Part shown: positions 8,884 to 56,835 of the stretch, piece after piece
Layout of the letters: each line of letters opens with the position of its first letter
How positions within the stretch are numbered: position 1 is the stretch's first letter
Source of the DNA: Hydrogenivirga caldilitoris
GTDB taxonomy: Bacteria; Aquificota; Aquificia; Aquificales; Aquificaceae
Assembly: GCF_003664005.1 (NCBI RefSeq)
Contig: NZ_RCCJ01000001.1
Span: forward strand, 1,426,001-1,490,000
DNA length: 64,000 nucleotides
Reading direction: 5' to 3'
Notes under the pieces: model-generated
Seen by the model: the letters and a program-made list of their open reading frames with translations, nothing else
Databases searched by the model: none
Told to the model about the DNA's origin: nothing
Program-made: the position numbers and the translations under genes

Positions 8884-10632
8884 TCACCTCTCCTCCCTCA
8901 GGGAAAGCTCCTTACTCTCCTTCTGGGTCTGCTGTAGTTGCTTTAGTGGTATGGGATATTGCTCGTTGTAAGCGGGTGAGTTCTGAAAGACACCTCTCTG
9001 GGTAACATCGTAGAGTGGAGGTATGTAGGAGAGAACGGCGAGGAGAACAGCCGCGACGGTCCAGCCTTTAAGGTTGTTCAGCACGGTGGAGGGTCCGTCG
9101 TGATAAGCCTCCGCTATAGGGAACTCAACCGTAGCCTCCCTGACTTTTGGAGCGAGAAGCGTTCCTAAAAAGGCTATAAGGAAGAAGAGAAAACCAATAC
9201 CAAGAAGCACACCGCCCACAACGGAAAGCTGGGCGTAACCTACCCACTCAGGTCTGTAGAGGGGAGAGTCTGGGTTAAGGTAAGTGAGTCCGGCGTTTGT
9301 CCTTCTTGGAAAACCTTCAAGGGCACCCCCAACCATCATAGCGTAGGAGAACATGAACATCCCCTGCATCCAGAAGTAGGGAGCTAAGGCGGCAAGACCC
9401 TTGAACTTTACCTCCGTTCCCCTAAGCTTGGAGACCATGTAGAGGGACATCCCTAAGAAGGCAAGGAGGACTAATCCTCCGACGGTTGTGTGGAAGTGTC
9501 CGGGTACGTAAGCTGTGTTGTGAACGGCTAAATTAAGGTTGTAAGAGGCGTTTACTATCCCTGTAATGCCTCCAAAGAAGAAAAGAACGAGCCCTGCGAA
9601 GAGGTAGGATAAGAGCCACTTATCCCCCTCAAGCCTAAGATAGGGTAGTCTCATCCACCAGTAGAACTTGGAGTTCTTCACAGAAGGGTCTTCAGCCTTT
9701 GCAGAGTATTCAAGGGAGGCAGCAACGGTAAAGGCAGTTATAAGACTTGGAAGGGCAACACAGAAGGTAAAGATGGCGTGGATGAGCTTCCAAGCGTTGG
9801 ATATACCAGGCTCTGTAAACTGGTGGTGGAGTCCAACAGGAAGGGAGAACAGGAGAAAGAGTATAAAGGCAAGCCTCGCAGCCTGGTCAGAGTAAAGTTT
9901 TCCTTTTTCTGAAGCTATCTTTGGAAGCATCGTATAGAGCATCACGTAGGCTGGAAGGAGCCAGAAGTAAACGACAGGATGTCCAAAGAACCAGAAAAGT
10001 GTCCTTGCAAGGAGCGGATTTATCTCATCAACCCAACCCACAGAAAGTGGAAAGAGCTGGAAAAGAATTTCTATAGCAACGGGTACTATCATTATAGTCC
10101 AGAGGGTATGGTTTACGAAGACTCCGAATACCGCAAGGGGTAGCTTTTCTTGTTTTTCCCTCCTCCACGCTATGGCGTTAGGTATCCAGTCAAAGAAAAA
10201 GGGCAACAGCGAACCCACAACAAGAAGAACTGTTCCTATATAGAAAGTCCAGTGCCCTATCAGGGGAGGGTAAAAGGTGTAGAGGAGTGTTGCCTTCTTT
10301 GTGAACATAGCCCAGGCTGCCATTAACGTCCCGCCTACCATGAGTATCCAAGAAAGCCACTGAATCGCCGGTCTCAGAGGTTTCTTCAAAAGATACAGAA
10401 CTACGGCGTTTCCAAAGGCAACGGCAAAGAAAGTGGTGAAGACTATCGCGTTTATAACCCCATGTAAGGTGAGCCCCTGGTAGTAGTCTATCCCCAGGAA
10501 GGAGTCAGCTTTAATTATCCCCGCTCTGTATAGAACCTGCATGACGCCGTGATAAACACCGAAAACAAGGAGGAGAATGGGAAAAACTATCTCACTCAGG
10601 ATTATGAACCTGATGCTACCTTCCACTCTCAT
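8884..10632 (-). CDS. cbaA: Cytochrome oxidase subunit I, ba3 type
   Basis: This 582-residue heme-copper oxidase catalytic subunit reduces oxygen at a heme a3-CuB centre in the membrane. It opens directly with helix I (RFIILSEIVFPILLLVFGVYHG) and shows the heme and CuB histidine regions DYYQGLTLHGVINAIVF, FGHPVVYFWLLPAYVM, LHHQFTEPG and VPGHFHTTVGG. The sequence is unlike the aa3 enzyme in the next operon and fits the B-type (Thermus ba3-like) branch, known for high oxygen affinity. It follows subunit II closely and precedes sco. Confidence 0.93.
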   Translation of the reverse strand: MRVEGSIRFIILSEIVFPILLLVFGVYHGVMQVLYRAGIIKADSFLGIDYYQGLTLHGVINAIVFTTFFAVAFGNAVVLYLLKKPLRPAIQWLSWILMVGGTLMAAWAMFTKKATLLYTFYPPLIGHWTFYIGTVLLVVGSLLPFFFDWIPNAIAWRREKQEKLPLAVFGVFVNHTLWTIMIVPVAIEILFQLFPLSVGWVDEINPLLARTLFWFFGHPVVYFWLLPAYVMLYTMLPKIASEKGKLYSDQAARLAFILFLLFSLPVGLHHQFTEPGISNAWKLIHAIFTFCVALPSLITAFTVAASLEYSAKAEDPSVKNSKFYWWMRLPYLRLEGDKWLLSYLFAGLVLFFFGGITGIVNASYNLNLAVHNTAYVPGHFHTTVGGLVLLAFLGMSLYMVSKLRGTEVKFKGLAALAPYFWMQGMFMFSYAMMVGGALEGFPRRTNAGLTYLNPDSPLYRPEWVGYAQLSVVGGVLLGIGFLFFLIAFLGTLLAPKVREATVEFPIAEAYHDGPSTVLNNLKGWTVAAVLLAVLSYIPPLYDVTQRGVFQNSPAYNEQYPIPLKQLQQTQKESKELSLREER

Positions 10633-11392: not shown

Positions 11393-13006
11393 CTAAAAGA
11401 CGGGAGGTGCGCCGTACTTATAAGGGTGGTAATCGGGTTCTACTTTGGGGTGCTCCTCACCGAAGTTATCAACGGGAGCCGGTGAAGGTATCTGCCACTC
11501 AAGGGACTGGGACTGCCACGGGTTGTCGGGAGCCTTCTCTCCTGCGAAGAGCCCCTTGAGTATGCCTATCGTAAAGACGAGCACACCGAGACCGAGGATA
11601 AGCGCACCAACAGTCTGTATATTGTGCAGGGTTACCCATTCGGGTATGGGAGGATAGTCGGGATACCTTCTGGGATTACCGAGCATTCCGACCACCATCT
11701 GGAAGAAGTAGAAGAGGTTTGCACCTATGAAGGTGAGCCAGAAGGATACCTTTCCAAGGTTTTCGGGATACATCTTTCCGGTCATCTTGGGGAACCAGTA
11801 GATTATGGCACCGAAGAGACCAAGCGTCAGAGCCATTCCGAGAACGTAGTGGAAGTGTCCGACGATGAAGAGGGAGTCGGAGATTCCAAGGTCTATGGCG
11901 ACCATGGCGTTGGGTATTCCCGTCAGTCCACCTATGAGGAACATGAATATTCCGCCGAGAGCATAGAGCATTGGAGATCTGAGTATTATAGCTCCACCGT
12001 GAAGGGTCCCTATCCAGTTGAATATCTTTATACCGGTGGGAACCGCAATCAGTATCGTGGTGTAAGACATTATCACCCTTGCCCAATCGGGTACACCGGA
12101 GACGAACATGTGGTGTATCCAGACCTCAAAACTTAGGAGGGTTATCCCCCACACGGCAAATATCATAGACTTGTATCCAAAGAGCGGTCTTCTTGCGAAG
12201 GTGGGGACTATCTCAGAGAAGAAGCCAAATACAGGGAGTATCTGAACATAAACAACGGGATGGGAATAGAACCAGAAAACGTTCTGGTAAAGAAGCGGGT
12301 CTCCTCCCTTAGCGGGATTGTAGAAGTTGGTTCCGAGGTACTTGTCAAGGAGGAGCATCGTAACCGCACCTGCAAGGGAAGGGACACCTACGAGCTGTAT
12401 AACGTTCGCCGCTATCAGACAGTGGACGAACATGTTTGTGTTCCAGAAGTTTATTCCGGGCGCCCTCATCTTTATGTAGGTGGTTATGAAGTTTACCGCG
12501 GTGGCTATGGAGGAAACTCCTACGAGGTGGATTATGAAGACGTAAAGGGCTGTAACTCCAGCATCACCGCTCGCTGAGTAGGGAGGGTAACCAGTCCACA
12601 TCATCTTTATGTGGTTTCCAGGTATAAGCGTTAGTAGAACAAGAACGCTCGCGCCGAAGAAAGCCCACCAGCTCAAAGCGTTGAGTCTGGGGAAGGCAAC
12701 GTCCTTGGCACCTATCATAAGGGGTAGGAGGAAGTTACCGAACCCACCTATGTGGGAGGCTATCGCCCACCACAGGAGAAGGACAGCTCCGTGTCCCGTG
12801 AGCAGGTAGTTGTAAAAGTCCGGCTGAACCAGCTGTATTCCAGGAGAGGTCTGCTCAAACCTTATTATCAGACCAAAGAACCCAGCCACGAGGAAAAATA
12901 TGTAAGCGGTGGACAGGTAAAGGATACCTATCTTCTTGTGGTCCGTAGTGAAGAGCCACTCTTTTAAACTCGCACCGAAGTAAGGGACAGATATGGCCTC
13001 TCTCAT
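11393..13006 (-). CDS. ctaD: Cytochrome c oxidase subunit I, aa3 type
   Basis: This 537-residue A-type heme-copper oxidase subunit carries twelve membrane helices. The low-spin heme His is in YNYLLTGHGAVLLLWW, and the CuB/heme a3 region reads WFYSHPVVYVQILPVFGF (His-Pro-Val-Val-Tyr, the His-Tyr crosslink site), followed by IHHMFVSG and VGHFHYVLGMALT. It reduces oxygen to water and pumps protons. It is the last gene of a ctaE-sco-ctaC-ctaD operon with a terminator after it. The length and motifs are normal for the family. Confidence 0.95.
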   Translation of the reverse strand: MREAISVPYFGASLKEWLFTTDHKKIGILYLSTAYIFFLVAGFFGLIIRFEQTSPGIQLVQPDFYNYLLTGHGAVLLLWWAIASHIGGFGNFLLPLMIGAKDVAFPRLNALSWWAFFGASVLVLLTLIPGNHIKMMWTGYPPYSASGDAGVTALYVFIIHLVGVSSIATAVNFITTYIKMRAPGINFWNTNMFVHCLIAANVIQLVGVPSLAGAVTMLLLDKYLGTNFYNPAKGGDPLLYQNVFWFYSHPVVYVQILPVFGFFSEIVPTFARRPLFGYKSMIFAVWGITLLSFEVWIHHMFVSGVPDWARVIMSYTTILIAVPTGIKIFNWIGTLHGGAIILRSPMLYALGGIFMFLIGGLTGIPNAMVAIDLGISDSLFIVGHFHYVLGMALTLGLFGAIIYWFPKMTGKMYPENLGKVSFWLTFIGANLFYFFQMVVGMLGNPRRYPDYPPIPEWVTLHNIQTVGALILGLGVLVFTIGILKGLFAGEKAPDNPWQSQSLEWQIPSPAPVDNFGEEHPKVEPDYHPYKYGAPPVF

Positions 13007-39487: not shown

Positions 39488-41545
39488 TTAACCTTTAGAA
39501 CCTTTCCACAGTAGTAAAGTATTTGCTACAACACTTACCGAAGAAAGAGCCATCATAAGTCCAGCAAGTTCAGGTTTTAGATACACACCAAACTTATAGA
39601 ACAGCCCTGCTGCCACGGGGATACCGACAACGTTGTAAACGAAAGCCCAGGCGAGGTTCTGCCTAATCTTGTTGCTCACAGACTCACCAAGCCTAAAGGA
39701 TTCCGGAAGTTTTCCTATTCCTGATAGGAGAACCACGTCACCAACCTGTTTGGTGATATCAACACCGTGAGGAACTGCAAAGGAAAGGTCTGCCTGAGCC
39801 AGGGCGGGAGCATCGTTAACACCATCCCCCACCATAGCTACCTTAAATCCCTCTTCCTGCAAACTTGCCACTACCCTCCTCTTCTCCTCCGGTTTCACCT
39901 CAGCCATAAAGCTGTCAAAGCCAAGCTCCTTTGCGACAAACTTGGTAGTTTTTGTCCTATCTCCTGACAGTAAAACCGTCTTAAGCCCAAGCTTTTTCAT
40001 CTCACCAACAACGAGTTTTGCCTCCTGTCTGAGGGTGTCCTTTAAATAGAAGACCGCAAGGATTTCACCGTTCCTCTTCAGAGCAACAGCCTTCCACACG
40101 TCCTCAGGGAGAGCTTCCTCTTCATACTCTCCTATGAAATACTCCCCGCAAACTATGCCTCTTCCCAGGAGCTCTTTACACCCGTCAAGTTCAATAGCCC
40201 TCGCCCCTTGCTTTTTGGCAAAATCCCTTATAGCTTTAGCTATCGGGTGGTTTGAGTATCCTTCCATCGTATAAACTACGTCAAGAGCTTCAGAGGAACG
40301 CAGCTCATACCTGACAACCTGAAACCTACCTTCCGTAAGTGTCCCTGTCTTATCAAAGACCACCATGTTTATCTTCGGAAAGACTTCCAAGGTAGAGGGT
40401 CTCTTTATAAGAATACCCCTGGTTAGAGCCTTTGAAATTCCAACAGCGACAGCGAGGGGGGTTGCTATTCCCAGGGCACATGGACAAGAAATAACCAGTA
40501 CCGCAAGAGCAAATTGAACAGCCTGCTCAAAGTTTGCACCCAGTTTTATCCAGGAGAGGAAGGTCAGCGCGGAGATCAACACCACAGTCTGGACAAAGTA
40601 ATGGGACACACGGTCAGCGAGTTTTTGAATCTTAGGTTTTTCGGAGAGAGCCTCTTCAATCATCCTGTTTATCTTAGAAACGTAAGAGTCTTCATAGGAA
40701 GCCTCTACCCAGATTTTAAGCATACCGCTTTCAAGGAGAGAGCCGCTTATCACCCTGCTTCCGGGCTCTTTAAGGATGGGCTCAGGTTCTCCTGTAAGGA
40801 CTGCCTCAGAAACGTAACCCTTCCCACCGATAACCACTCCGTCCACAGGTACCATGTCTCCAGGTCTGCAGAGGATAAGCTCACCCTTCCTGAGCTCACG
40901 AACGTTCCGCTTTAACTCTTCTCCATTCTCAATAACCGTTACCTCAGAATGTTGAAGCGTAAGCATATCCTTAAGTAACTTTAGAGCCTTTCGTTTAGCC
41001 CTATCCTCAATAAGCCTTCCAGCCTTTACAAAGGTTATGAGGAAGGCGTTGGTCTCAAAGAAAGGAGTCCCTGGGATAATACCAAAGAGTGAAAGTAAGC
41101 TGTAAAGGTACGCACCAGTGGTTCCAAGAGCCACAAGCACATCCATTCCAGCCACACCGTTTCTCAGGGAATTGTAGGCTCCCTTATAGAATGTCCAGCC
41201 ACCCAAAGCTTGAACGAGCGTTGATAGAGCCAGCTGAATATAAACAGAACCCTCAAAGGGGCGGAACATAAGCCCCATTATCAAGAGAGCCGATAACCCA
41301 GACAGGAGGAGTATGTACATCTCCCCACCTCCCTCCTGCTCTTCAACAACCCTGTATCCTAATTGCTCTATAACCCTTGTAATTTCCTCCTCGGATATTT
41401 TGCTCTCATCAAACTCTATCCTTACCCTCCCTAGCTCAAAGGAAACGTCAACCTTCTTCACGCCCTCCCTCTTTTTTAGAGCTATGTCTATGGTGCGGGC
41501 ACAGTTCACACAGGTCATGCCCTCAACCTTTAAGGTGCGTCTCAT
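39488..41545 (-). CDS. copA: Copper-type P1B ATPase (CopA-like)
   Basis: This 685-residue pump exports Cu(I) or a similar soft metal. An N-terminal heavy-metal domain has GMTCVNCA (9-16); the membrane metal site is CPCALGIATPLA; phosphorylation is at DKTGTLTEG, with TGEPEPIL and GDGVNDAPALAQADL. The CPC motif and single metal domain are typical of CopA. No CopZ or CsoR lies beside it. Copper demand from the two oxidases and the bufferin-like locus suit it. Confidence 0.92.
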   Translation of the reverse strand: MRRTLKVEGMTCVNCARTIDIALKKREGVKKVDVSFELGRVRIEFDESKISEEEITRVIEQLGYRVVEEQEGGGEMYILLLSGLSALLIMGLMFRPFEGSVYIQLALSTLVQALGGWTFYKGAYNSLRNGVAGMDVLVALGTTGAYLYSLLSLFGIIPGTPFFETNAFLITFVKAGRLIEDRAKRKALKLLKDMLTLQHSEVTVIENGEELKRNVRELRKGELILCRPGDMVPVDGVVIGGKGYVSEAVLTGEPEPILKEPGSRVISGSLLESGMLKIWVEASYEDSYVSKINRMIEEALSEKPKIQKLADRVSHYFVQTVVLISALTFLSWIKLGANFEQAVQFALAVLVISCPCALGIATPLAVAVGISKALTRGILIKRPSTLEVFPKINMVVFDKTGTLTEGRFQVVRYELRSSEALDVVYTMEGYSNHPIAKAIRDFAKKQGARAIELDGCKELLGRGIVCGEYFIGEYEEEALPEDVWKAVALKRNGEILAVFYLKDTLRQEAKLVVGEMKKLGLKTVLLSGDRTKTTKFVAKELGFDSFMAEVKPEEKRRVVASLQEEGFKVAMVGDGVNDAPALAQADLSFAVPHGVDITKQVGDVVLLSGIGKLPESFRLGESVSNKIRQNLAWAFVYNVVGIPVAAGLFYKFGVYLKPELAGLMMALSSVSVVANTLLLWKGSKG

Positions 41546-47802: not shown

Positions 47803-49083
47803 ATGGAGACGATAAAGGAACTGTACACTCACCTGTTCCGCCGCCAGTGGCCAGCATGGATAGGTGGGATAAGTATGGGTTTCATCGTAGTCCTCATGTT
47901 CGTATGGGGTGCTCCCTGGGGTGTTACCAACGGGATCCTGGTTTGGGGAGACAACATACTCAAGCCTATACTTTACCCAGATTCAGACGTGCAGAGTCCG
48001 ATATGGCAGTTTACAGCTTTGATAAACTGGGCTTTCCTTCTGGGAGCTTTTATCTCTGCGCTCCTTGGAGGGGATTTCAGGATAAGCATCCCCTCTTTTA
48101 AAGAGTTCCTAATGGGCGCCTTTGGGGGGACGTTGATGGGTATAGGAGCCTTTCTCGCCTTTGGATGTACAATAGGAGCTTTTCTCGTGGGCTTTGGAGC
48201 TCTTTCAGCTTCCGGTATAACGATGATGATAGGTTTGGGTATAGGAACGTATACCGGGTTGAGGCTATATATGTGGCTCCTTACAAAGGGCTGGGGCACA
48301 CCAGGTAGGGCTATTGAAGTTCCGGTAAATTTTCAGGTGATACTCGGTGTTGTACTCATGGTAATAACCCTTGGACTTATAGTCTTACTTGATAAGAAGG
48401 TGTCCACTTACTCCCCAGCCCTTGGGCTGGGTTCCGTTCAGGTCACCGCTGGCTCTTTAATATTCTTCGGAGCTATCCTTGGAATAATCAACCAGAGGAC
48501 AAGGTTCTGCTTCGTAAGAGCCTTCAGAGAACCCTTCATGACCGGTGAGGGTAACATGACGAGGGCTGCAGCTCTCGCCCTCATAGTGGCCGCAGTTTTT
48601 GGTCTTATAGTCAAGTTCTCACCTCTTACTAACGTCCTTGAGATACCAGACGTTAAAGACATACTGGCAATAGAGATGACTGCTCCTCCTTCTATAAAGG
48701 CTATGATGATAGCTCCCTCCTTTCCCATAGGTTCATTGATAGGAGGTTTTATCTTCGGCATAGGTATGACCCTTGCAGGTGGCTGCTCTGTGGGTAGCTT
48801 CTGGCGGGCGGGAGAAGGCTCCCTGAAGAACATGACGGCTATACTCTTTTATGCCTTAGGAGGTTCTCTCTTCGCTTTCCTTTACAGGAAGATAGAGCCT
48901 GCCATACTGAGCACCTTCTCCGGTCTTTACGAAAAACTCGGAGCAACTAACGCAACGGGTATAAGGCTCTTCCTTCCGGATGCTCTTGGTCCTGGGTGGG
49001 CTCTCGTCATATTCCTCGCCTTCGCCCTGGCATGGCTCCTGTTTGCAACCTGGAACGAGAGAACGATGAAGTTTACCTTATAG
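47803..49083 (+). CDS. YeeE/YedE-family sulfur transporter (TsuA-like)
   Basis: This 426-residue integral membrane protein imports thiosulfate or a related sulfur species. The conserved cysteines sit in AFGCTIGAFLVG, RTRFCFVRAFREPF and AGGCSVGSFWRAGEG, as in TsuA. It lacks a fused or adjacent TusA-like partner; instead a DsrE/thioredoxin operon faces it. Its ribosome-binding site is AAGGAGGAG. A TGTTCTAACA decamer lies about 40 bp upstream. Confidence 0.88.
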   Translation: METIKELYTHLFRRQWPAWIGGISMGFIVVLMFVWGAPWGVTNGILVWGDNILKPILYPDSDVQSPIWQFTALINWAFLLGAFISALLGGDFRISIPSFKEFLMGAFGGTLMGIGAFLAFGCTIGAFLVGFGALSASGITMMIGLGIGTYTGLRLYMWLLTKGWGTPGRAIEVPVNFQVILGVVLMVITLGLIVLLDKKVSTYSPALGLGSVQVTAGSLIFFGAILGIINQRTRFCFVRAFREPFMTGEGNMTRAAALALIVAAVFGLIVKFSPLTNVLEIPDVKDILAIEMTAPPSIKAMMIAPSFPIGSLIGGFIFGIGMTLAGGCSVGSFWRAGEGSLKNMTAILFYALGGSLFAFLYRKIEPAILSTFSGLYEKLGATNATGIRLFLPDALGPGWALVIFLAFALAWLLFATWNERTMKFTL

Positions 49084-49456
49084 ATTCAATTATCGGACAT
49101 ACGGAGGCGGGGACGTCCCGCCTCTTCCTTAAGAGACCCTCCAGGAGTTTCTTCTGGGAATTCAGCTCCTCTATGAGATTTTCTATCTCACGGATTTTTC
49201 CCTTTATCTTCTCCTCAACACACCCGCAGGGTGTCCTTCCCGAAAACTTCAGGGAGATAATCTCCTTTATGTCCTCTAACTTAAAGCCGACCGCTTTCGC
49301 TTTGAGGATGAACTCGCAGAGCTTGAGGTGTTCTTCCGTGTAAACTCTGTAACCCGAACTGTTCCTTGACGGTGGTGGAAGGAGACCTATCTCCTCCCAG
49401 TATCTTAGGGTCTTGGGATTCAGTCCAAGCCTCTTGGCAAGCTCACCTATCCTCAT
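49073..49456 (-). CDS. MerR family regulator
   Basis: This 127-residue regulator has the N-terminal winged helix MRIGELAKRLGLNPKTLRYWEEIGLLPPPSRNSS split by motif, a coiled dimer helix, and a cysteine pair CGCVEEK near residue 82 that could bind metal or sense thiols. It is the last gene of the thiol-relay operon, overlapping dsrE by ATGA, and its end overlaps yeeE by 11 bp. It may control yeeE and the operon. Confidence 0.88.
   Translation of the reverse strand: MRIGELAKRLGLNPKTLRYWEEIGLLPPPSRNSSGYRVYTEEHLKLCEFILKAKAVGFKLEDIKEIISLKFSGRTPCGCVEEKIKGKIREIENLIEELNSQKKLLEGLLRKRRDVPASVCPIIESIR
49104..49124 (+). terminator. Possible yeeE terminator inside merR
   Basis: An 8-bp stem GAGGCGGG / CCCGCCTC with a 5-nt loop is followed by TTCCTT on the plus strand, 21 bp after the yeeE stop and within the merR coding end. 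Confidence 0.5.
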
Positions 49457-49875
49457 AGGTATATAGGTATGTACCCTTCTTTAACTTTCAAGACGTGGTA
49501 CTCAAAGCCAGACCTAACGACCTCAACACCGTCAAAGAGCGCCTCCTCGGAAACATTAAACATATTCATGGCGACCTTACAAGCCTTGAACTCAACACCG
49601 TGGAGCATGAGGTTCTCTATCCTCTCCTCAAACTCTCCGTTCTCAAACCTGTCAAGAAAAGTTATCCCCTCATCGTAAGCAACCACCTCTATGTCCGCAC
49701 GCGCTTCCCAGAGGTTTATAGCTCCCCTTATCCTTAGAAAGACCTTCTTCCACCTCTTCCTGTCCCTGAAGGTAACGGGGAATAAAAGTTTGATCTCCTC
49801 ATTAGAGGAAGCTCTCAGGGGAGTTAAAAGGGTAAGCACTCCGGCGGTTCCCAAGAGGAGGTCTCTCCTTCTCAC
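49453..49875 (-). CDS. Tat-exported DsrE/DsrF-like protein
   Basis: This 140-residue protein starts with a twin-arginine-like signal (RRRDLLLGTAGVLTLLTPLRA) and continues with a DsrE-type fold having a single conserved cysteine region (VEFKACKVAMNMF). It is likely a periplasmic sulfane-sulfur carrier. The GTG at 49875 is preferred: it overlaps the CcdA-like stop as GTGA and has GGAGGTG 5 nt upstream. The longer frame starts two codons earlier. Confidence 0.75.
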   Translation of the reverse strand: MRRRDLLLGTAGVLTLLTPLRASSNEEIKLLFPVTFRDRKRWKKVFLRIRGAINLWEARADIEVVAYDEGITFLDRFENGEFEERIENLMLHGVEFKACKVAMNMFNVSEEALFDGVEVVRSGFEYHVLKVKEGYIPIYL

Positions 49876-51146
49876 AACCACACCTCCAGAAAGTTTTTAA
49901 AGAAGTAACCTGAGAGTATCAGGAAGATTGTTCCAACGAGTCTGTTTATGTGAACGTAGTGGGCTTTAAGAAAATCAGCGAGGTAGCTTACAACCACACC
50001 TGAGAGGAAGACAGGTATAGCCCTGCCGACCGCATATACACCCATTAGAAAGACCGAAGCAGTCAGGTTACCCGTTGAGGTACTCAGAACTATTGCTCCG
50101 AGGAGTAGGGAGGTGCAGGAGGGACATAGGGAGAAGGTGTAAGCAACCCCGAGAAGGAAGCTGCCTGTGCCCGCTCCCCTGAAGGGATTGAGCTTAGCCA
50201 CTTGAAGGGAGAAGGGAAGTACGTTGAGGAGGTTGAGGGCAATCAAAAGGAGAATAGCGGCGAGGAAAAGGTTGAAGATATCAGTCCTGAATATCTCCGA
50301 GAGGACTATAGCGCCGGCGGAGGCGATACCCCCGACAAAGGCATGGGTGAGGAGAAGGGCAACAGAGAAGCCGATCACGCTCAGGGTTATATCCCTCTTG
50401 GAGCTGTGCTTAGTAACGAGTATTCCGAAAACCACCGGCAGGAAAGGTAGGGTGGAGGGTCCAAGGCTCGTTAAGAAACCGAGAATAAAGAGTATTAACG
50501 CTAAAAGTAGGAAGGGCTGTTGCTCCTGAAGAAGGGAAGAGACGAAGAGGCTGAGTCCCGTAAAGTTTATGAAAAGACCAATAGCGAGTATAAGGGAAAA
50601 GCCCGTTATTGCCGGGACCGCCGGTATCAGGAAGGTAAGAACTTTAAGAACCTTCTCCGGCAGTAGTATGAGTATAAGGGTGGGGAGGGTGACAAAGAGA
50701 GCGTAAAGATTAAATATCAGAAAAGGACTCTTGAAATAAAGGGAATAGAATGCAAGGAGGGCTATAAAGGGAAGGCTGCAGTAGGTGAGACTGAAACCCA
50801 GAGCCACACCAGGAGGGAACCTTCTGTGGTGGAAGAAGAACTGAGGTGAGAAATCAATGGGTGCTATCCCGAATCTCCTCATGAGGGGAAAGCCGAGGAT
50901 GAATATCCCAGCAACAATTCCTTGAACGACCAGAAGAGTCTCCAAGGAGGGAGTAAACCTCTTTGAGAGAATATAGAAGAGAAAGGCGATGAGATTGAAG
51001 AGAAGGAAGCGAGATAAGAAGAGAAGGGGTATCTCTAAAACGCTTCCCTTCTTCACGTAAGCCCTCAGCAGTAGATTTACATTCCACATGCAGGGGGTGA
51101 AAAAGGACAGGGCTCCGAGGAGGGGAACTATATAAACGGGGCTCAG
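49872..51146 (-). CDS. CcdA-like membrane thiol-transfer protein with two modules, CTG start
   Basis: This 424-residue polytopic protein appears built from two CcdA-like modules. Module 1 opens with ALSFFTPCMWN (Cys19), resembling the first helix of CcdA, and has TYCSLPF (Cys123). Module 2 has LTSLGPSTLPFLP, where Ser231 replaces the usual Cys, and FSLCPSCTSLLLGAI (Cys341, Cys344). It would move electrons from cytoplasmic thioredoxin to periplasmic thiols. An ATG at 51089 would cut off the TPC motif; no ATG, GTG or TTG precedes it in frame, but CTG at 51146 overlaps the thioredoxin stop (CTGA) behind GAGGAGGAG. Confidence 0.75.
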   Translation of the reverse strand: MSPVYIVPLLGALSFFTPCMWNVNLLLRAYVKKGSVLEIPLLFLSRFLLFNLIAFLFYILSKRFTPSLETLLVVQGIVAGIFILGFPLMRRFGIAPIDFSPQFFFHHRRFPPGVALGFSLTYCSLPFIALLAFYSLYFKSPFLIFNLYALFVTLPTLILILLPEKVLKVLTFLIPAVPAITGFSLILAIGLFINFTGLSLFVSSLLQEQQPFLLLALILFILGFLTSLGPSTLPFLPVVFGILVTKHSSKRDITLSVIGFSVALLLTHAFVGGIASAGAIVLSEIFRTDIFNLFLAAILLLIALNLLNVLPFSLQVAKLNPFRGAGTGSFLLGVAYTFSLCPSCTSLLLGAIVLSTSTGNLTASVFLMGVYAVGRAIPVFLSGVVVSYLADFLKAHYVHINRLVGTIFLILSGYFFKNFLEVWL

Positions 51147-51394
51147 GATATCTCCTCCTCTATAGCTTTCCTTATATTCTCCTCTGAAGGCACCACACCG
51201 GCGAACTTCACCTTTCCGTTTATCACCACCGCCGGGGAGGTCAGAATGCCGAGCTCCGTTATCCTGTCCACATCCTCTATGGGGTCGAGCATCTTTACCT
51301 CAGCGCCAAGCTCCCTCGCCACCTTAACAACCCTATCCTTAACCACCGCACACTTGGGGCAGAAGTTTGACTCCAAGAGCTCAACGGCCACCAT
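51143..51394 (-). CDS. Small thioredoxin-like redox disulfide protein
   Basis: This 83-residue glutaredoxin-sized protein (TM0996/MTH895 type) has the redox motif FCPKCAVV (Cys12, Cys15), the cis-Pro loop GILTSPAVVING and a C-terminal helix. It probably reduces the CcdA-like protein encoded next to it, whose CTG start overlaps its stop. It has no Shine-Dalgarno; a TATATT lies 7 nt upstream, right after a terminator-like hairpin, so it may be a leaderless operon start. Confidence 0.85.
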   Translation of the reverse strand: MVAVELLESNFCPKCAVVKDRVVKVARELGAEVKMLDPIEDVDRITELGILTSPAVVINGKVKFAGVVPSEENIRKAIEEEIS

Positions 51395-51401
51395 AGATGA
51401 G

Positions 51402-51407
51402 AATATA
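51402..51407 (-). promoter_or_regulatory. -10 box close to the small thioredoxin start
   Basis: TATATT on the minus strand lies 7 nt from the ATG at 51394, directly after the upstream hairpin, giving an expected leader of zero to one nucleotide. A weak TTGCCT lies 19-20 bp further up. Confidence 0.45.
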
Positions 51408-51409
51408 AA

Positions 51410-51429
51410 CCTTCCAGCTAACTGGAAGG
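51410..51429 (-). terminator. Hairpin terminator after the cytoplasmic DsrE gene
   Basis: A perfect 8-bp stem CCTTCCAG / CTGGAAGG with a 4-nt loop is followed by TTTATATT on the minus strand. It separates the DsrE gene from the thioredoxin operon. Confidence 0.6.
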
Positions 51430-51435
51430 CAAGGG

Positions 51436-51756
51436 CTAAAAGCTGACCACCTTGTCCGCCCAGCTCACGAGCTCATAGAGGTCATTCATTGAGCCGACAG
51501 GACAGGCAGCCCCCTCCTTAGAGTTCCTAACCTCTAAACATACCCCGCAGGCAACGACCTCCCCTCCGTTCTCTTTAAAAAGTTTCATCTGCTCCCGGAC
51601 GTTGAACTTCTCGTTTTCTATCCCGAGACTCTCAACACCCTTTCCGAGAAGGAAGACCTTAACCTCATCCCCCTGAGCCAAGGAGAAGACGCCGAACCTG
51701 AAGGCGTTCCACACGGTCTCAGGGTCGTTGCTATAAACTACTATCCCCACTCTCAT
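51436..51756 (-). CDS. Cytoplasmic DsrE-family sulfur carrier
   Basis: This 106-residue protein has the DsrE fold (MRVGIVVYSNDPETVWNAF ... GDEVKVFLLGKGVE) and cysteines at GGEVVACGVCLE and GAACPVGSM. The CGVC pair region is the usual persulfide site. It lacks a signal peptide and so complements the Tat-exported copy. ATG 51756 follows GGGAGG. It lies 33 bp from divergent queF. Confidence 0.85.
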   Translation of the reverse strand: MRVGIVVYSNDPETVWNAFRFGVFSLAQGDEVKVFLLGKGVESLGIENEKFNVREQMKLFKENGGEVVACGVCLEVRNSKEGAACPVGSMNDLYELVSWADKVVSF

Positions 51757-51776
51757 CCAGAACCTCCCTTTTGAGC

Positions 51777-51782
51777 TATATT
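51777..51782 (+). promoter_or_regulatory. -10 box close to the queF start
   Basis: TATATT lies 7 nt before the queF ATG at 51790, with no ribosome-binding site. Confidence 0.4.
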
Positions 51783-51789
51783 TAATCAC

Positions 51790-52182
51790 ATGGAAGAGGT
51801 AAGGGAAAAGAAGTACGGAGAGATAGCGATAGAGCAGGCGGAGCTTGAACCCTGGGAGAACCCGACTCCTGAGAGGGACTACATGATAGAGATAACCTTC
51901 CCCGAGTTCTCCTGCCTGTGCCCGAGGTCCGGATATCCAGACTACGCGACCATAAGGATACGCTACATACCTGACAGATACATAGTTGAGCTCAAATCCT
52001 TAAAGCTCTGGCTCAATAAGTTCAGGAACAGGTATATCTCCCACGAGCAGGCGACCAACGAGATATACACCGCCCTATACGAGACCCTGAAGCCGAGGTT
52101 CTTAGAAGTGATAGGGGACTTCAACCCGAGGGGAAACGTCCACACGGTGGTGAAGCTCAGGAGTGACGGGAAATATGATTAA
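51790..52182 (+). CDS. queF: NADPH-dependent 7-cyano-7-deazaguanine reductase QueF
   Basis: This 130-residue short (YkvM-type) QueF reduces preQ0 to preQ1 for queuosine in tRNA. The nucleophile is Cys44 in [10 protein letters not shown] with Asp51 seven residues later, matching the family geometry, and ELKSLKLW is the QueF motif. There is no Shine-Dalgarno. The regulator downstream starts inside its end. Confidence 0.93.
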
Positions 52183-52858
52183 GGAAGAGAAGCTTTGGTA
52201 TCTCAAGAACCTTGACATACTTTCCGGACTATCCGAAGAAGAGCTGAAGTTTTTAGACGATAACTCAGTGGGTCTTAACGTTAAGAAAGGAACCACCATA
52301 TACTCTCCAGAGGAAAAGGAAGAGTTTCTTTACTTCGTAAAAAGGGGAAGTGTCAGACTCTATAAAGTTGACAGCAATGGTAAGGAGATAACCTTCGCGA
52401 TACTTGGGGCTGGTGACATATTCGGTGGTATATCTCCCTATGACAGAGACATGTACGGTGAGTTCGCCGTTGCCCTGGAAGACACATTCATATGTCTCGT
52501 AAACAAAAGGGTTTTCTTCAGCCGTATGAGTAGGAACCCCACGATTATGCTTAGGTTGAATAAGTTTCTTGGTTTAATGACCTACGAATTGGAACTCAGA
52601 ATTGAAGAACTCGTAGCCAAACCGGTTTTAACCAGGCTTGCCTCCCTGTTGTTGAGGCTCCAAGACAGGTTCGGCGACCCTGAAGGTGACATAAAACTGT
52701 CCCTATCCCACAGAGAGCTCGCAAGCCTTATAGGGGCAACCAGGGAAGCGACCACTATAGCCCTTAATGAGCTCAAGGATATGGGTGCGATTGAGATCGG
52801 CAGGAAGAAGATAAAGGTCATCAGTAGGAAACTCCTTGAAGAGCTCTCTACATTTTGA
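52175..52858 (+). CDS. Crp/Fnr family transcription regulator
   Basis: This 227-residue regulator has an N-terminal cyclic-nucleotide-binding-like domain ([30 protein letters not shown] ... GAGDIFGGI split by position) and a C-terminal winged helix ([28 protein letters not shown]). No Fnr-type N-terminal cysteine cluster is present. Its ATG at 52175 overlaps queF by 8 bp. It ends 11 bp into opposing bufC, and its target genes are unknown. Confidence 0.88.
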
Positions 52859-53546
52859 CCAGCACTCCGACAGATACAAGCCTGGACATGAAGTTCTCAA
52901 GGTAGGGTATAACCTCCTCAAGTTCAAATTCAAGTTCCCTTCTCTCAAGGGCGGTTTTTGGGCTCACTCCTCCTACCACCTCTTTCAGGTAGCCATAAAC
53001 AAACTCCGTCAGCTCCACACTCTTCACATTCTCATCTCTATCCCTGTACATAAGCAGGTAGTAATTACCCTTAGCGGCAATCATCTCCTCATAAGACATA
53101 GAGTTAAACCTGTGAACGGGAAAGGAAAAATGAAGAATCTTAGCCGATGATGAGAGCCTGTAGCTCCCCTTCCATGAGAAACCTTCAGATAATCTCTCAT
53201 CAGGTGCGTTAAAGAGTTCCACTTCCAGCCATTCGTATAGGGCAAGCTCCTCAAGAAAGGGCAGTTTAGCCTTCAGGGGGAGTTCTTTTCCTCTAAAAAA
53301 ATCAACGAACTCGTTTCCAAGGTCTAACAGAAGCGGGCTTGTATGCTTCAACCTCATAAACTCCCTGACAAGTGGTTCAAGCTCATCTCCGAGGTATTGA
53401 GAAAGTGACGGAAGCGAAGTCTCTATGAATTCCTCAAACCTGTTGTAGACAAGCAGAAAGTATAGCTCTAACCTCTCATTTTCGGGAGGCGTGATTCCCT
53501 TGGCTGTGGCAAAAAGTTTCCTCATCTCAGCAAGCTCTCTTTGCAC
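52848..53546 (-). CDS. bufC: BufC-like protein (DUF2063), partner of MNIO enzyme
   Basis: This 232-residue protein fits the DUF2063 partner of MNIO enzymes, which binds the precursor and presents it for modification. The N-terminal half is helical (about 1-100; LEVYFLLVYNRFEEFIETSLPSLSQYL-like) and the C-terminal half has a mixed fold. The start is GTG 53546 behind AGGAG, overlapping bufB by 20 bp; an ATG at 53525 is an alternative. The assignment leans on the adjacent MNIO gene and the precursor. Confidence 0.75.
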   Translation of the reverse strand: MQRELAEMRKLFATAKGITPPENERLELYFLLVYNRFEEFIETSLPSLSQYLGDELEPLVREFMRLKHTSPLLLDLGNEFVDFFRGKELPLKAKLPFLEELALYEWLEVELFNAPDERLSEGFSWKGSYRLSSSAKILHFSFPVHRFNSMSYEEMIAAKGNYYLLMYRDRDENVKSVELTEFVYGYLKEVVGGVSPKTALERRELEFELEEVIPYLENFMSRLVSVGVLVKM

Positions 53547-54351
53547 CTCTAAAACTCCTCACTTCTTCAAGCTCGCTCATCAGCTCTCCGTACGAAGGTA
53601 TGTTGTTGTCCCTCTCCAAGAGAACAGGGATATCAGGTTTCTTTGATAGAACATAGGCAAGAAGCTCCAGAACTTCCTCCTTAACCTTCTCTCCATGGGT
53701 ATCTATAAGAATCCTGTCATCCTTATCGTGTCCAGCTATATGTATGTAAGCTACCCTATCCAAAGGCATACATTCTATAAACTCGTAAGGGTTGTATCCA
53801 TGGTTAACCGAGTTCACGTAAACATTGTTAACATCAAGTAGCAGGTAAGCCCCACTCTCCTCCAAAACTCCCTTTATAAACTCCCATTCCTCCATATCCT
53901 TCAATGGAGTATAGTAATAAGAGATGTTCTCAATTATCAATGGTATTTCAAGGAATTCCTGAACCTTCCTTATCTTATCCGAAACAAACTTTATCGTATT
54001 ATCAGTAAAGGGCAAAGGGAACAGGTCATGCAGGTATTCACCACCCATAGAGGAAAAACTAAGGTGCTCCGAATAAACCTTAATATCAAAGTCCTTTAAA
54101 AAACTCTTTATCTGCTTGAGGAAGGCGTAATTGAGTTCATCTGGAGAACCTACAGAAAGGGAGAGTCCGTGACAAACTACAGGGAAACGCTCCCTAACCC
54201 TCTCAAGGACCCTTCTGAAGAAACCTCCCCTCCTCAGCCAGTTCTCAGGTGCGATTTCAAACCACTCAGGTGATGAGTCATAATTTACTACCTCTTCAGC
54301 GAATGAATATCTGAGACCGAGTCCAAAGCCTTTAGGTAAGTTTAAGTCCAT
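53527..54351 (-). CDS. bufB: MNIO-family (DUF692) peptide-modifying oxidase, BufB-like
   Basis: This 274-residue TIM-barrel enzyme belongs to the multinuclear non-heme iron oxidative enzymes that modify cysteines of RiPP precursors. Iron-ligand regions are seen: VCHGLSLSVGS, VYSEHLSFS, LLLDVNNVYVNSVNHGYNP, YIHIAGHDKDD, DTHGEKV and LLERDNNIP. It is expected to convert precursor cysteines, as bufferin MNIOs form thiooxazoles. The ATG at 54351 lies 5 nt after TATACT with no Shine-Dalgarno, so a leaderless start is possible. Confidence 0.88.
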   Translation of the reverse strand: MDLNLPKGFGLGLRYSFAEEVVNYDSSPEWFEIAPENWLRRGGFFRRVLERVRERFPVVCHGLSLSVGSPDELNYAFLKQIKSFLKDFDIKVYSEHLSFSSMGGEYLHDLFPLPFTDNTIKFVSDKIRKVQEFLEIPLIIENISYYYTPLKDMEEWEFIKGVLEESGAYLLLDVNNVYVNSVNHGYNPYEFIECMPLDRVAYIHIAGHDKDDRILIDTHGEKVKEEVLELLAYVLSKKPDIPVLLERDNNIPSYGELMSELEEVRSFRGAKRAC

Positions 54352-54356
54352 GTCCA

Positions 54357-54362
54357 AGTATA
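54357..54362 (-). promoter_or_regulatory. -10 box close to the bufB start
   Basis: TATACT on the minus strand lies 5 nt from the ATG at 54351. In the same gap, AACTTAAC (near 54363) and GTTAAGTT (near 54429) form distant inverted arms that flank the divergent promoters. Confidence 0.35.
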
Positions 54363-54455
54363 AACTTAACCCAAATCCTCGTATATTTGGTGAGATAGAT
54401 TACAGATAACTTCCGTGGAGAGTCTATAGTTAAGTTACAAGGAGGTGTAGAAGCC

Positions 54456-54743
54456 ATGAACGGAAAGCAAAAACTTATGGGCCTTTTAGGTTCAGCAGTC
54501 CTACTCGGACTGGGAGCAGAAGGAGTAACACCAGCCCATGCTGGTGAAGGTAAGTGTGCGGGTAAAACAGGCGGGACCAGTACGGAGAAAGCCAAAGAGG
54601 CTACCTGTGCTGGAATGAAGAAGGAAGGCAAGGAAGCTACCTGTGCCGGCACAAAAGAGAAAAAGAAAAAAACTAAGGAGATGACATGCGCAGGACCTGG
54701 GGGATGCGGTGGGAAGATGAAAAAGGACGGCTCAAAGTCCTAA
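54456..54743 (+). CDS. bufA: Bufferin-like RiPP precursor (BufA-like), five cysteines
   Basis: This 95-residue secreted peptide has a signal (MNGKQKLMGLLGSAVLLGLG, probable cleavage after AHA at 28) and a Lys/Gly-rich mature region. Cysteines at 34, 51, 63, 78 and 84 all lie in C-A/G-G contexts: EGKCAG, ATCAG, ATCAG, MTCAG and GGCGG. EGKC resembles the EGKCG motif of bufferins, where an MNIO makes copper-binding thiooxazoles. A strong AAGGAGGTG precedes the ATG. It is divergent from bufB-bufC and leads to the DoxX gene. Confidence 0.82.
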   Translation: MNGKQKLMGLLGSAVLLGLGAEGVTPAHAGEGKCAGKTGGTSTEKAKEATCAGMKKEGKEATCAGTKEKKKKTKEMTCAGPGGCGGKMKKDGSKS

Positions 54744-54778
54744 ACCGAAGACCCAATTAAAAAGCTGGAGGGAACGCT

Positions 54779-55255
54779 ATGACTTCAAACCTAAGCGGTG
54801 TGGTTCGCCTTTATGAAAAGGGGCTAAATCTCCTGCCTCCCCTCCAGTCTCTTTTCCTTCTTTTTGTGAGACTTTACTGGGGATGGCTCTTTGCCCAAGC
54901 AGGATACGGTAAGCTCACCCATATAGATAGAACAACAGAATTTTTCGGAAGCCTTGGGATGCCATTTCCCGAATTTAACGCTTACTTTATAGGTCTTACA
55001 GAGTTTCTTGGAGGTGTTCTTATAAGCCTGGGACTTGGGACAAGACTGGTGGGTGCCTTTCTGGCTGGAGAGATGTTCGTTGCATACCTGGTAGCTCACA
55101 GGAGTGAGCTCATGAGCGTATTTTCAGATCCAAGCGAGTTTTACACTGCACCACCCTTCACCTTTATGTTTGCCTCTCTGATACTATTTCTGTTCGGTGC
55201 AGGGAAGATATCCCTTGACAATCTGGTTACCAAGGTCACAAGAGGTTTAGAATAA
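54779..55255 (+). CDS. bufD: DoxX-family membrane protein (BufD-like)
   Basis: This 158-residue four-helix membrane protein of the DoxX family has the features RLYWGWLFAQAGYGKLTH, FFGSLGMPFPEFNAYFIGLTE (motif split) and GLGTRLVGAFLAGEMFVAYL. DoxX proteins accompany many bufferin operons. It lies 35 bp after bufA with its own GGAGGG site and 4 bp before the cysteine-cluster gene. Its exact function is unknown; quinone or thiol redox roles have been suggested for the family. Confidence 0.82.
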   Translation: MTSNLSGVVRLYEKGLNLLPPLQSLFLLFVRLYWGWLFAQAGYGKLTHIDRTTEFFGSLGMPFPEFNAYFIGLTEFLGGVLISLGLGTRLVGAFLAGEMFVAYLVAHRSELMSVFSDPSEFYTAPPFTFMFASLILFLFGAGKISLDNLVTKVTRGLE

Positions 55256-55259
55256 ACTT

Positions 55260-55928
55260 ATGCCCTCAGAAAGCGAATATGCTGAGGAAAGAAGCCGGCT
55301 CTTTGAAGAAACGCTTAAAAAAGCCACGGAAGACATCAAGGTTGACTGCCGAAGGGGCTGTACTTACTGCTGTTACGGGGTTACCCTCTGGATAAAGAGA
55401 GTTGAAGCTGTCCTAATGGTTGATTTTCTGAATAGGCTACCGTTAAAGGAAAGGAAGGAAATCTGGCACAGGATAAAGAATTACGCAAAGCTCTATGAGG
55501 AAGAGGCTAAAAGGGTAGGGTACGCACCTAGTTTCCCCATCAAAGAGGAGGACCTTGATATAGAAAAGCTGGGTGTGATCGGCGGTTTAGGTATGAACGA
55601 GGTACCTTGTCCCTTCCTTGAAGAACACACGGGAGTATGCCTCATATATGAGGCAAGGCCGGACATGTGCCGACTCATGCTCTATGAGAACAGTTCTGTA
55701 TGTAAAAGAGACTGGGAAAACCCCCTCGGCTTCCTGTGGAAGAGGGAGATAGCACCCTTTATGGACGATATTAAGGCGAGGTTTTTCCCAAGGTGGAAGC
55801 TCAAGAGAGGAGAGCTCTCAAAGAAGTTCCCAAGTTTGGAGCAAGAGAAGCTTGAGGGAGAAGTGGGCTTCGTAACCCACTTTATAAGGTTTGACCCTGT
55901 GAGAAAGGTTTTCAAGGTTACCGGTTAG
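55260..55928 (+). CDS. YkgJ-type cysteine-cluster protein linked to the bufferin locus
   Basis: This 222-residue soluble protein carries a YkgJ-like cysteine cluster: CRRGCTYCCYG near residue 28-36, then CPFLEEHTGVCLIYEARPDMCR and SSVCKRD. Such clusters chelate iron, zinc or an Fe-S centre. The C-terminal third is Lys-rich and unlike the family core. It starts 4 nt after the DoxX stop, so it belongs to the bufA operon. It could supply iron to the MNIO enzyme or handle copper; both are guesses. Confidence 0.78.
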   Translation: MPSESEYAEERSRLFEETLKKATEDIKVDCRRGCTYCCYGVTLWIKRVEAVLMVDFLNRLPLKERKEIWHRIKNYAKLYEEEAKRVGYAPSFPIKEEDLDIEKLGVIGGLGMNEVPCPFLEEHTGVCLIYEARPDMCRLMLYENSSVCKRDWENPLGFLWKREIAPFMDDIKARFFPRWKLKRGELSKKFPSLEQEKLEGEVGFVTHFIRFDPVRKVFKVTG

Positions 55929-56835
55929 GGAGTCTGCAGTCCCTGAAGGTTTCCCATACGTATCTATTCAGCGGGTAGTTTAAGTACTCCCATTCACGCT
56001 TTGATGCATCGTAAACTCTCATTCCTTGATAACCGGCAAAGTCCATAACCATATAGAGAAAAGCTGCACCAGTGCCTCCAAAGCAAAAGAGCAGGACTTC
56101 ATCTTCCCTCTTAATACCCTGATTCTTCAAAAACTCATCTACATAGGCAGGGATTTTTATCAGGAGCTTGTTGGTCCTCTTATCTCTCTGAATCCACCAC
56201 TCCCAAGGTAAAGAGATAGAACAGGGAACATGTCCGTACTTTTTAGCAGCTGGAAACTTGGATATACCAAAGTAATGCCCTACAGGTCTACCATCTAAGA
56301 TAGGTTTCTTACCTATGCTATTGAGCAGGTAATCCGCATCTATCTCCTTCCTGGGGTTATAGTTTGCCCTGAAGTTTCCTTCCTTTATCTGTGGCTCATC
56401 GTAACTTACAGGAAAACCCTTGTTACTCCAGCCAGACCAACCTCCATCCAGCAGGGCTACCTTCTCGTGACCAAGAAGATGGAAAATCCAGTATGCGTAG
56501 ACAGCACCGAGAATCTCATTGGTGTTGTTACCCTTATAATAAAGGACAACTTTTGAGCTGTTGTTTATGCCCCACTTCCTGAAGAGTTTCTCGTACTCCT
56601 TGAGAGGTTTCTTAACAAGGGCTCCTGTTTTCTCATCCATTACCCTCCACTCCTCTTTTTCCGTAAGTCTTGCACCCGGTATGTGCCCCTCAACGAGATA
56701 GCTCTGAGAGTCTGAGAATTCAAGGATAACGATCTCCGGGTCTCCCAGATGCTCTTTCAACCATTCTGGTGACACCAGCTTGGGCAATGAGAAGGACACC
56801 CCTATCATAAGGAGAAGCACAATCAAGAAGTTCAT
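55918..56835 (-). CDS. Exported two-domain thiosulfate sulfurtransferase (rhodanese)
   Basis: This 305-residue protein has a signal peptide (MNFLIVLLLMIGVSFS), an N-terminal rhodanese domain (VSPEWLKEHLGDPEIVILEF, about 20-150) and a catalytic C-terminal one (about 165-290) with ILDGRPVGHYFG and the active-site cysteine in LLFCFGGTGA. It moves sulfane sulfur in the periplasm. It overlaps opposing YkgJ-type gene by 11 bp. Confidence 0.9.
   Translation of the reverse strand: MNFLIVLLLMIGVSFSLPKLVSPEWLKEHLGDPEIVILEFSDSQSYLVEGHIPGARLTEKEEWRVMDEKTGALVKKPLKEYEKLFRKWGINNSSKVVLYYKGNNTNEILGAVYAYWIFHLLGHEKVALLDGGWSGWSNKGFPVSYDEPQIKEGNFRANYNPRKEIDADYLLNSIGKKPILDGRPVGHYFGISKFPAAKKYGHVPCSISLPWEWWIQRDKRTNKLLIKIPAYVDEFLKNQGIKREDEVLLFCFGGTGAAFLYMVMDFAGYQGMRVYDASKREWEYLNYPLNRYVWETFRDCRLPNR

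Follow-up and report, generated by a model that had tools for sequence, protein, structure and literature searches.

Does a small gene cassette in the genome of Hydrogenivirga caldilitoris encode a bufferin, or a peptide of another family made with the same kinds of genes? The cassette occupies 52848-55928 of a 64,000-nucleotide stretch of contig NZ_RCCJ01000001.1 (positions 1,426,001 to 1,490,000 of the forward strand), which we call the window. A sequence-only reading had described it as a bufferin-like locus. From sequence comparison, its best filing is a divergent subfamily of the captophorins, the copper peptides carrying 5-thiooxazole, on the HvfB/oxazolin side. All five open reading frames of the sequence-only reading are present where it placed them, and they are listed here with the adjoining regulator gene and a candidate operator, both of which that reading had overlooked.

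52163..52858, plus strand: Crp/Fnr-family regulator (Pfam cNMP_binding, HTH_Crp_2), of a subfamily tied to Aquificota MNIO cassettes
52848..53546, minus strand: PME-type-1 (PME1) partner protein with DUF2063 and an RRE-like domain, HvfC-like (PF09836 and PF22106 above cut-off)
53527..54357, minus strand: MNIO (DUF692) enzyme, HvfB-like (PF05114, 4e-98)
54389..54404, no strand: candidate operator, a palindrome of the Crp type (GGTGAGATAGATTACA) within the promoter region common to both operons
54456..54743, plus strand: precursor peptide of 95 amino acids with a Sec-type signal (AHA/GE) and five Cys
54779..55255, plus strand: DoxX-family membrane protein, HvfX-like, accessory (PF07681, 6e-22)
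55260..55928, plus strand: YkgJ-type CxxCxxCC protein, co-oriented neighbour (PF03692, 2e-9)

The split into two divergent operons was correctly described: the MNIO and partner frames overlap on the minus strand, while the precursor, DoxX and YkgJ genes lie on the plus strand. The MNIO starts at a TTG (54357) or at an in-frame ATG (54351), and 98 bp separate the precursor start from the TTG. It is the only MNIO in the genome. The proposed Aquificaceae-type host also proved right, as the window belongs to Aquificota, and the MNIO, DUF2063 and DoxX families were matched in Pfam. A thermophilic host, offered as new, is not a novelty, since the host of fontiphorin is a moderate thermophile (PMC13097082).

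The precursor and its predicted modifying enzymes

The five cysteines of the precursor stand in the contexts EGKCAG, EATCAG, EATCAG, EMTCAG and PGGCGG. The gene is preceded by a Shine-Dalgarno sequence (AAGGAGGTG), and the signal segment was called by eye. No Pfam or NCBIfam model matches the peptide, DUF2282 included. Each of the eight cassette-bearing genomes in the window's genus has an orthologous precursor divergent from its MNIO, and so does G076, a genome from a second family. Between the window and locus L019, substitutions number 10, 9 and 45 at the first, second and third codon positions, and identity is 74% in the Cys hexamers, 59% in the signal and 48% in the linkers. The precursors of the genus have three to five Cys and that of L029 has six, at positions that are not fixed. 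Their recurrent motif is E-x-[KTAVNS]-C-[AG], and a C-terminal pair such as EMTCAG-PGGCGG is present in every ortholog. The sequence-only reading had named the conservation of these motifs as one test of its case, and they are kept across eight orthologous precursors. Because the precursors are under purifying selection and the Cys motifs are their best conserved part, we regard this as a genuine RiPP (ribosomally synthesised and post-translationally modified peptide) locus.

The EGKCG repeats typical of the HvfA family are not present: the window precursor has one EGKCA, the remainder being EATCA, EMTCA and PGGCG. The HvfA repeat model NF050137 matched none of the Aquificota precursors scanned and detected the Rheinheimera and Sulfurimonas controls (L049, L091). 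Precursors of the window type were not found in 298 Campylobacterota genomes. EATCAG appears to be within reach of captophorin chemistry, since Thr in the third and Ala in the fifth place of the motif are both accepted by FonBC (PMC13097082).

As for the MNIO, its sequence matches 3bww at 1e-62, and its AlphaFold model (pLDDT 90) has the same structure as its best fold match (8e-24), followed by TglH and MbnB. Ligand positions were taken from an alignment to the metal ligands of 3BWW, MbnB and TglH. The columns H63, H98, E143, D175, N177, N178, H206, D219, H221 and E248 are invariant in 16 Aquificota MNIOs, so the iron ligands, whose loss would have spoken against the earlier reading, are in place. 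Also invariant in these 16 enzymes is the catalytic Asp (D250), whose equivalent is essential in FonB (PMC13097082). The FonB specificity position Arg15 is kept in the window enzyme. Asn at the position of FonB Phe250 was considered as the sole cause of the loss of Lys before Cys, and was dropped. Campylobacterota enzymes with this Asn still have KCG precursors, so we claim no simple residue-motif rule.

The partner model (pLDDT 92.7) best matches 3dee (NGO1945) in the Protein Data Bank (PDB), then TglI (8hi7). These relatives came from the fold comparison, as phmmer against the PDB found none. In Pfam the partner reaches 30.6 bits for DUF2063 and 30.1 bits for NGO1945_C, both above cut-off, and in NCBIfam 105.6 bits for HvfC against a cut-off of 142. 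The MNIO scores 337 bits for HvfB (cut-off 360) and 282 for BufB (cut-off 310), and the DoxX protein 71 bits for HvfX (cut-off 80).

The locus has the parts expected of a captophorin system, namely an MNIO with conserved ligands and catalytic Asp, a PME1 partner, and a signal-bearing, Cys-rich precursor beside the enzyme genes. Protein families, ligands and conserved motifs together uphold the original call of an MNIO-PME1 RiPP locus with a Cys-motif precursor. All characterised MNIO-PME1 pathways install 5-thiooxazole (PMC13097082), and oxazolin has been reassigned to this same structure (PMC13419390).

In a tree of 101 MNIOs, built by a quick search with support from the Shimodaira-Hasegawa-like approximate likelihood ratio test (SH-aLRT) only, the Aquificota enzymes adjoin a small Campylobacterota group. 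Both lie within an assemblage with EGKCG or DAKCG precursors nearby. An outgroup of five BufB references, four of them with annotated DUF2282 genes, is separated at 99% SH-aLRT. Because of this clade membership and the split from the BufBs, the locus seems to work like an oxazolin/captophorin pathway and not like a bufferin, by the features tested. The name bufferin has to be given up: DUF2282 does not match the precursor, and the place of the MNIO is in the HvfB/EGKCG clade, apart from the DUF2282-linked BufBs. The bufferin features tested are all absent (a DUF2282 precursor, the 6 or 12 conserved Cys of Buf2, and bufA-bufB-bufC on one strand). From the Buf_EGKCG/oxazolin set, the locus has an MNIO in an EGKCG-linked clade and lacks EGKCG repeats, scores above the Hvf cut-offs and the Arg16/Phe250 residues.

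Distribution, regulator and promoter palindrome

MNIOs are present in 16 of 136 Aquificota genomes, eight from the window's genus, where the cassette occurs in 8 of 17 genomes, and eight from the second family (four genera). We counted 17 RiPP loci in these 16 genomes, as G076 holds two (L028, L029). DoxX is adjacent in 7 of the 17. Outside the window's genus, the divergent layout has so far been seen in L029 only. Bufferin clusters were reported with a strict bufA-bufB-bufC order, in a study that drew candidate precursors only from genes preceding MNIOs (PMC12452194). Across 78 non-Aquificota loci, every EGKCG-type precursor that we recognised is upstream of the MNIO on the same strand.

G076 carries one canonical cassette (L028) and one divergent (L029), with two MNIOs and two precursor types. 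The second type (L026-L028, L030-L034) has MTCGKEMKEKMKECKK-like repeats, canonical order and a mixture of Cys-Gly and Cys-Lys contexts. The precursors of this group that were scanned likewise matched no family model.

Strong orthologues of the regulator (E<1e-37, the next match being 3e-27) occur in only 7 of the 136 genomes. Six of the seven carry the cassette, always with the regulator adjacent, and the seventh (G019) is fragmentary, with no MNIO detected. This co-occurrence gives a Fisher p of 7e-6 over the 136 genomes, a value that ignores shared ancestry. The regulator gene converges on the enzyme operon in the window, L019 and L020, and diverges from the cassette in L028, L030 and L031.

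A conserved palindrome was first seen in an alignment of the divergent promoters of the congeners and L029. Its best forms are a near-perfect TGTAAT-N4-ATTACA; the window copy reads GGTGAG-ATAG-ATTACA (54389-54404), and the pattern used for scanning was GTRA-N6-TYAC. All seven loci from regulator-bearing genomes have the palindrome in their RiPP promoters, including L028, L030 and L031, which lay outside the alignment that suggested it. Among the ten loci from regulator-less genomes, only L021 has it (genome 81% complete). Its presence follows that of the regulator with a Fisher p of 4e-4 (17 loci), and eight palindromes were seen against 0.05 expected from background density in 1518 bp of 17 RiPP promoters; the Fisher and Poisson values are optimistic because the loci are related and because the motif was discovered in some of these very loci.

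In the 78 non-Aquificota loci the regulator stands beside an MNIO in none, with one weak Crp-like domain match in a 630-residue reading frame of L058, and the palindrome appears there as one chance-like site only. A genome scan for the classic CRP site TTGTGA-N6-TCACAA gave 71 matches against 63 in the control, and a sigma-70 promoter scan gave no excess over shuffles. A search of open-licence papers found none linking DUF692 with Crp/Fnr, Aquificota or Hydrogenobacter, which in itself does not prove priority.

Judged from these sequence patterns, the palindrome is probably read by the adjacent Crp/Fnr regulator. The host genome has four Crp-family matches, similar palindromes lie elsewhere (for example upstream of glnB-glnA), and in the 81%-complete genome of L021 the site is present and no strong regulator orthologue was found. 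These points speak for a less likely option, in which another Crp paralogue reads the site and the regulator is adjacent by chance. However, the site follows the regulator subfamily across two families (7/7 loci with it, 1/10 without), and the adjacency survives differing gene arrangements.

Two further sites in the host genome were recorded. At L140 1763-1782 (G000:C1 ~1544765) a near-perfect palindrome, TGTAATCTGATTTACA on one strand, precedes DsrE-family and SoxA/TsdA-type cytochrome c genes and is a possible second target of the regulator. At L139 1767-1786 (G000:C1 ~423070) the palindrome TGTAAACAAATTTACA lies upstream of glnB-glnA-like genes and is probably a site of another Crp/NtcA-type paralogue. 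One sensory-domain Cys is shared by all six near-full-length regulator orthologues (window, L020, L129, L028, L030, L031); as a lead only, it could be a redox or metal sensor.

Proposed function, surroundings and rival explanations

We consider it likely that the product of the cassette is a RiPP of the captophorin type (a peptidic metallophore with thiooxazoles) and that it belongs to a divergent Aquificota subfamily on the oxazolin side. The 95-residue precursor would be made in the cytoplasm, where it is probably delivered to the HvfB-like MNIO by means of its own signal segment and the HvfC-like RRE partner. With its O2-activating iron centre, the MNIO would oxidise the Cys in E-x-[K/T]-C-[A/G]-G, and 5-thiooxazoles are the most likely outcome. 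Sec export would follow, then signal cleavage between AHA and GE. In the periplasm the mature Lys/Glu-rich peptide, possibly heat-stable as the sequence-only reading proposed, would protect the cell by binding a soft metal, for which Cu(I) is the likeliest candidate. DoxX/HvfX would have an accessory role in the membrane. A single promoter region serves the two diverging operons (precursor-DoxX and MNIO-partner), and the Crp-type regulator probably switches it in response to its signal by binding the palindrome.

Several points weigh against this picture. None of the locus proteins reaches an NCBIfam equivalog cut-off for Hvf or Buf. Among the specificity residues of EGKCG enzymes, FonB Arg16 is replaced by Tyr in the window's genus, and all 17 Aquificota enzymes have Asn in place of Phe250. 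In the fifth motif, PGGCGG, position 3 is Gly and the residue two before it is Pro, which FonBC does not tolerate in the motif (PMC13097082). The left half of the window palindrome matches TGTAAT at only 3/6 positions. Finally, nothing ties the cassette to copper: it is surrounded by sulfur genes, and at least 11 kb separate it from the nearest copper genes seen.

The copper genes of the window include an HMA P-type ATPase (39488-41545) and two COX1 genes (8884-10632 and 11393-13006), with COX2 and SCO1 genes. The suggestion that the peptide serves two copper oxidases finds no support, as both COX1 genes are about 40 kb away and the sole link is a shared genome. Around the cassette (47803-51789 and 55918-56835) there is instead a sulfur-handling island of Sulf_transp, MerR, two DsrE, DsbD-like, thioredoxin-like and exported rhodanese genes.

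This setting allows another function, in which the modified peptide serves sulfur or redox/NO stress and not copper buffering, with regulator and island as its context. The linked regulator is of the Crp/Fnr type, whereas Buf1 clusters were reported with ECF sigma/NrsF pairs; the second palindrome of the genome precedes the DsrE and SoxA/TsdA-type cytochrome operon; and DoxX elsewhere guards against oxidative or sulfur stress (PMC12452194). We nevertheless hold this to be unlikely. Rhodanese, YkgJ and queF keep their places when the cassette is missing, which makes the island a host site and not a part of the system. Moreover, the second-family cassettes sit among unrelated genes, and copper is bound by all characterised relatives.

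The same comparison bears on the neighbouring genes. In the congener G009, the rhodanese, YkgJ, a 309-residue protein and queF follow each other in order, with no MNIO, precursor or partner. Since this has the appearance of a cassette-free version of the site, YkgJ and the 309-residue protein were rejected as system parts and are best seen as residents of the region. YkgJ, which the sequence-only reading had included, also occurs without the cassette in G012 and G016, and the cassette without YkgJ in G015; its persistence where the cassette is absent makes it probably a mere neighbour.

The 309-residue protein is free of Cys and has no Pfam match (L019:10219-11148, L020:3639-4568, L025:5038-5967, L125:8072-8800). 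Its gene, flanked by the partner gene on one side and by queF (or crp) on the other, persists when the cassette is missing. In L029, DoxX is followed by a possible distant match.

A further proposal makes the Aquificota systems a separate branch, in which Asn enzymes and Thr/Met-flanked Cys motifs have co-evolved under a dedicated Crp/Fnr regulator. Such a system, in high-temperature microaerophiles, would respond to redox, NO or sulfur cues and not to copper, possibly with another modification or metal. We give this the same low standing as the sulfur or redox function.

Very improbable, and largely refuted, is a true bufferin (Buf1 with DUF2282, or Buf2 with 6 or 12 Cys) that has drifted. 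The same four gene families do occur, and the bufferin and EGKCG enzymes are closely related (PMC12452194). Yet the DUF2282 match is missing, BufB scores below HvfB, the tree sets the five BufB references apart, the order is not bufABC and the Cys number only three to six. A decayed or non-functional locus, which the patchy presence in the genus might suggest, can practically be dismissed given strong purifying selection on precursor and enzyme and intact reading frames throughout.

Significance and comparison with known systems

Three points are new here: an Aquificota precursor family missed by the tested models, the divergent architecture and the regulator-palindrome pair. Captophorins and bufferins have been described mainly from Pseudomonadota, and precursor searches leaned on EGKCG and DUF2282 models and on the order of precursor before MNIO. 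Since the Aquificota precursors escape the tested NCBIfam HvfA and Pfam DUF2282 models, current counts of such peptides may be too low. The regulator-palindrome pair opens a direct experimental route to the inducer. If they can be expressed, thermostable pairs of enzyme and partner from bacteria of hot springs might be useful for structural studies of the iron chemistry.

Among known systems, oxazolin (HvfABCX of nontypeable Haemophilus influenzae) shares with the window an MNIO of the same clade whose best NCBIfam score is HvfB, an HvfC-like partner, an HvfX-like DoxX protein and a Cys-repeat precursor with a signal. It differs in that the window precursor has neither EGKCG repeats nor a match to NF050137 or NF050188 and is divergent from the enzyme operon. 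In the window enzyme Arg16 becomes Tyr and Phe250 becomes Asn, and a Crp-type regulator and palindrome accompany the locus.

Fontiphorin (FonABC) and the other captophorins (PMC13097082) likewise rely on an MNIO-PME1 pair acting on a Cys-motif precursor, and the fontiphorin host is also a thermophile. Gene layout, motif make-up and phylum are different, and the window-type precursors have only 3-6 Cys. Bufferins, both Buf1 (DUF2282) and Buf2, have the same four gene families as the window, whose precursor, however, is unrelated to DUF2282, whose MNIO belongs to another clade and whose order is not bufABC.

Lastly, the canonical-order Aquificota cassettes (L026-L028, L030-L034) have a related MNIO in which the catalytic Asp is likewise followed by Asn, and a precursor end, KEMACG.CG, that resembles KEMTCAGPGGCGG of the window; some also share the Crp regulator and palindrome. 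In contrast to the window, their precursor, MNIO and partner genes lie on one strand, and the precursor is rich in MTCGKEMKEKMKECKK repeats.

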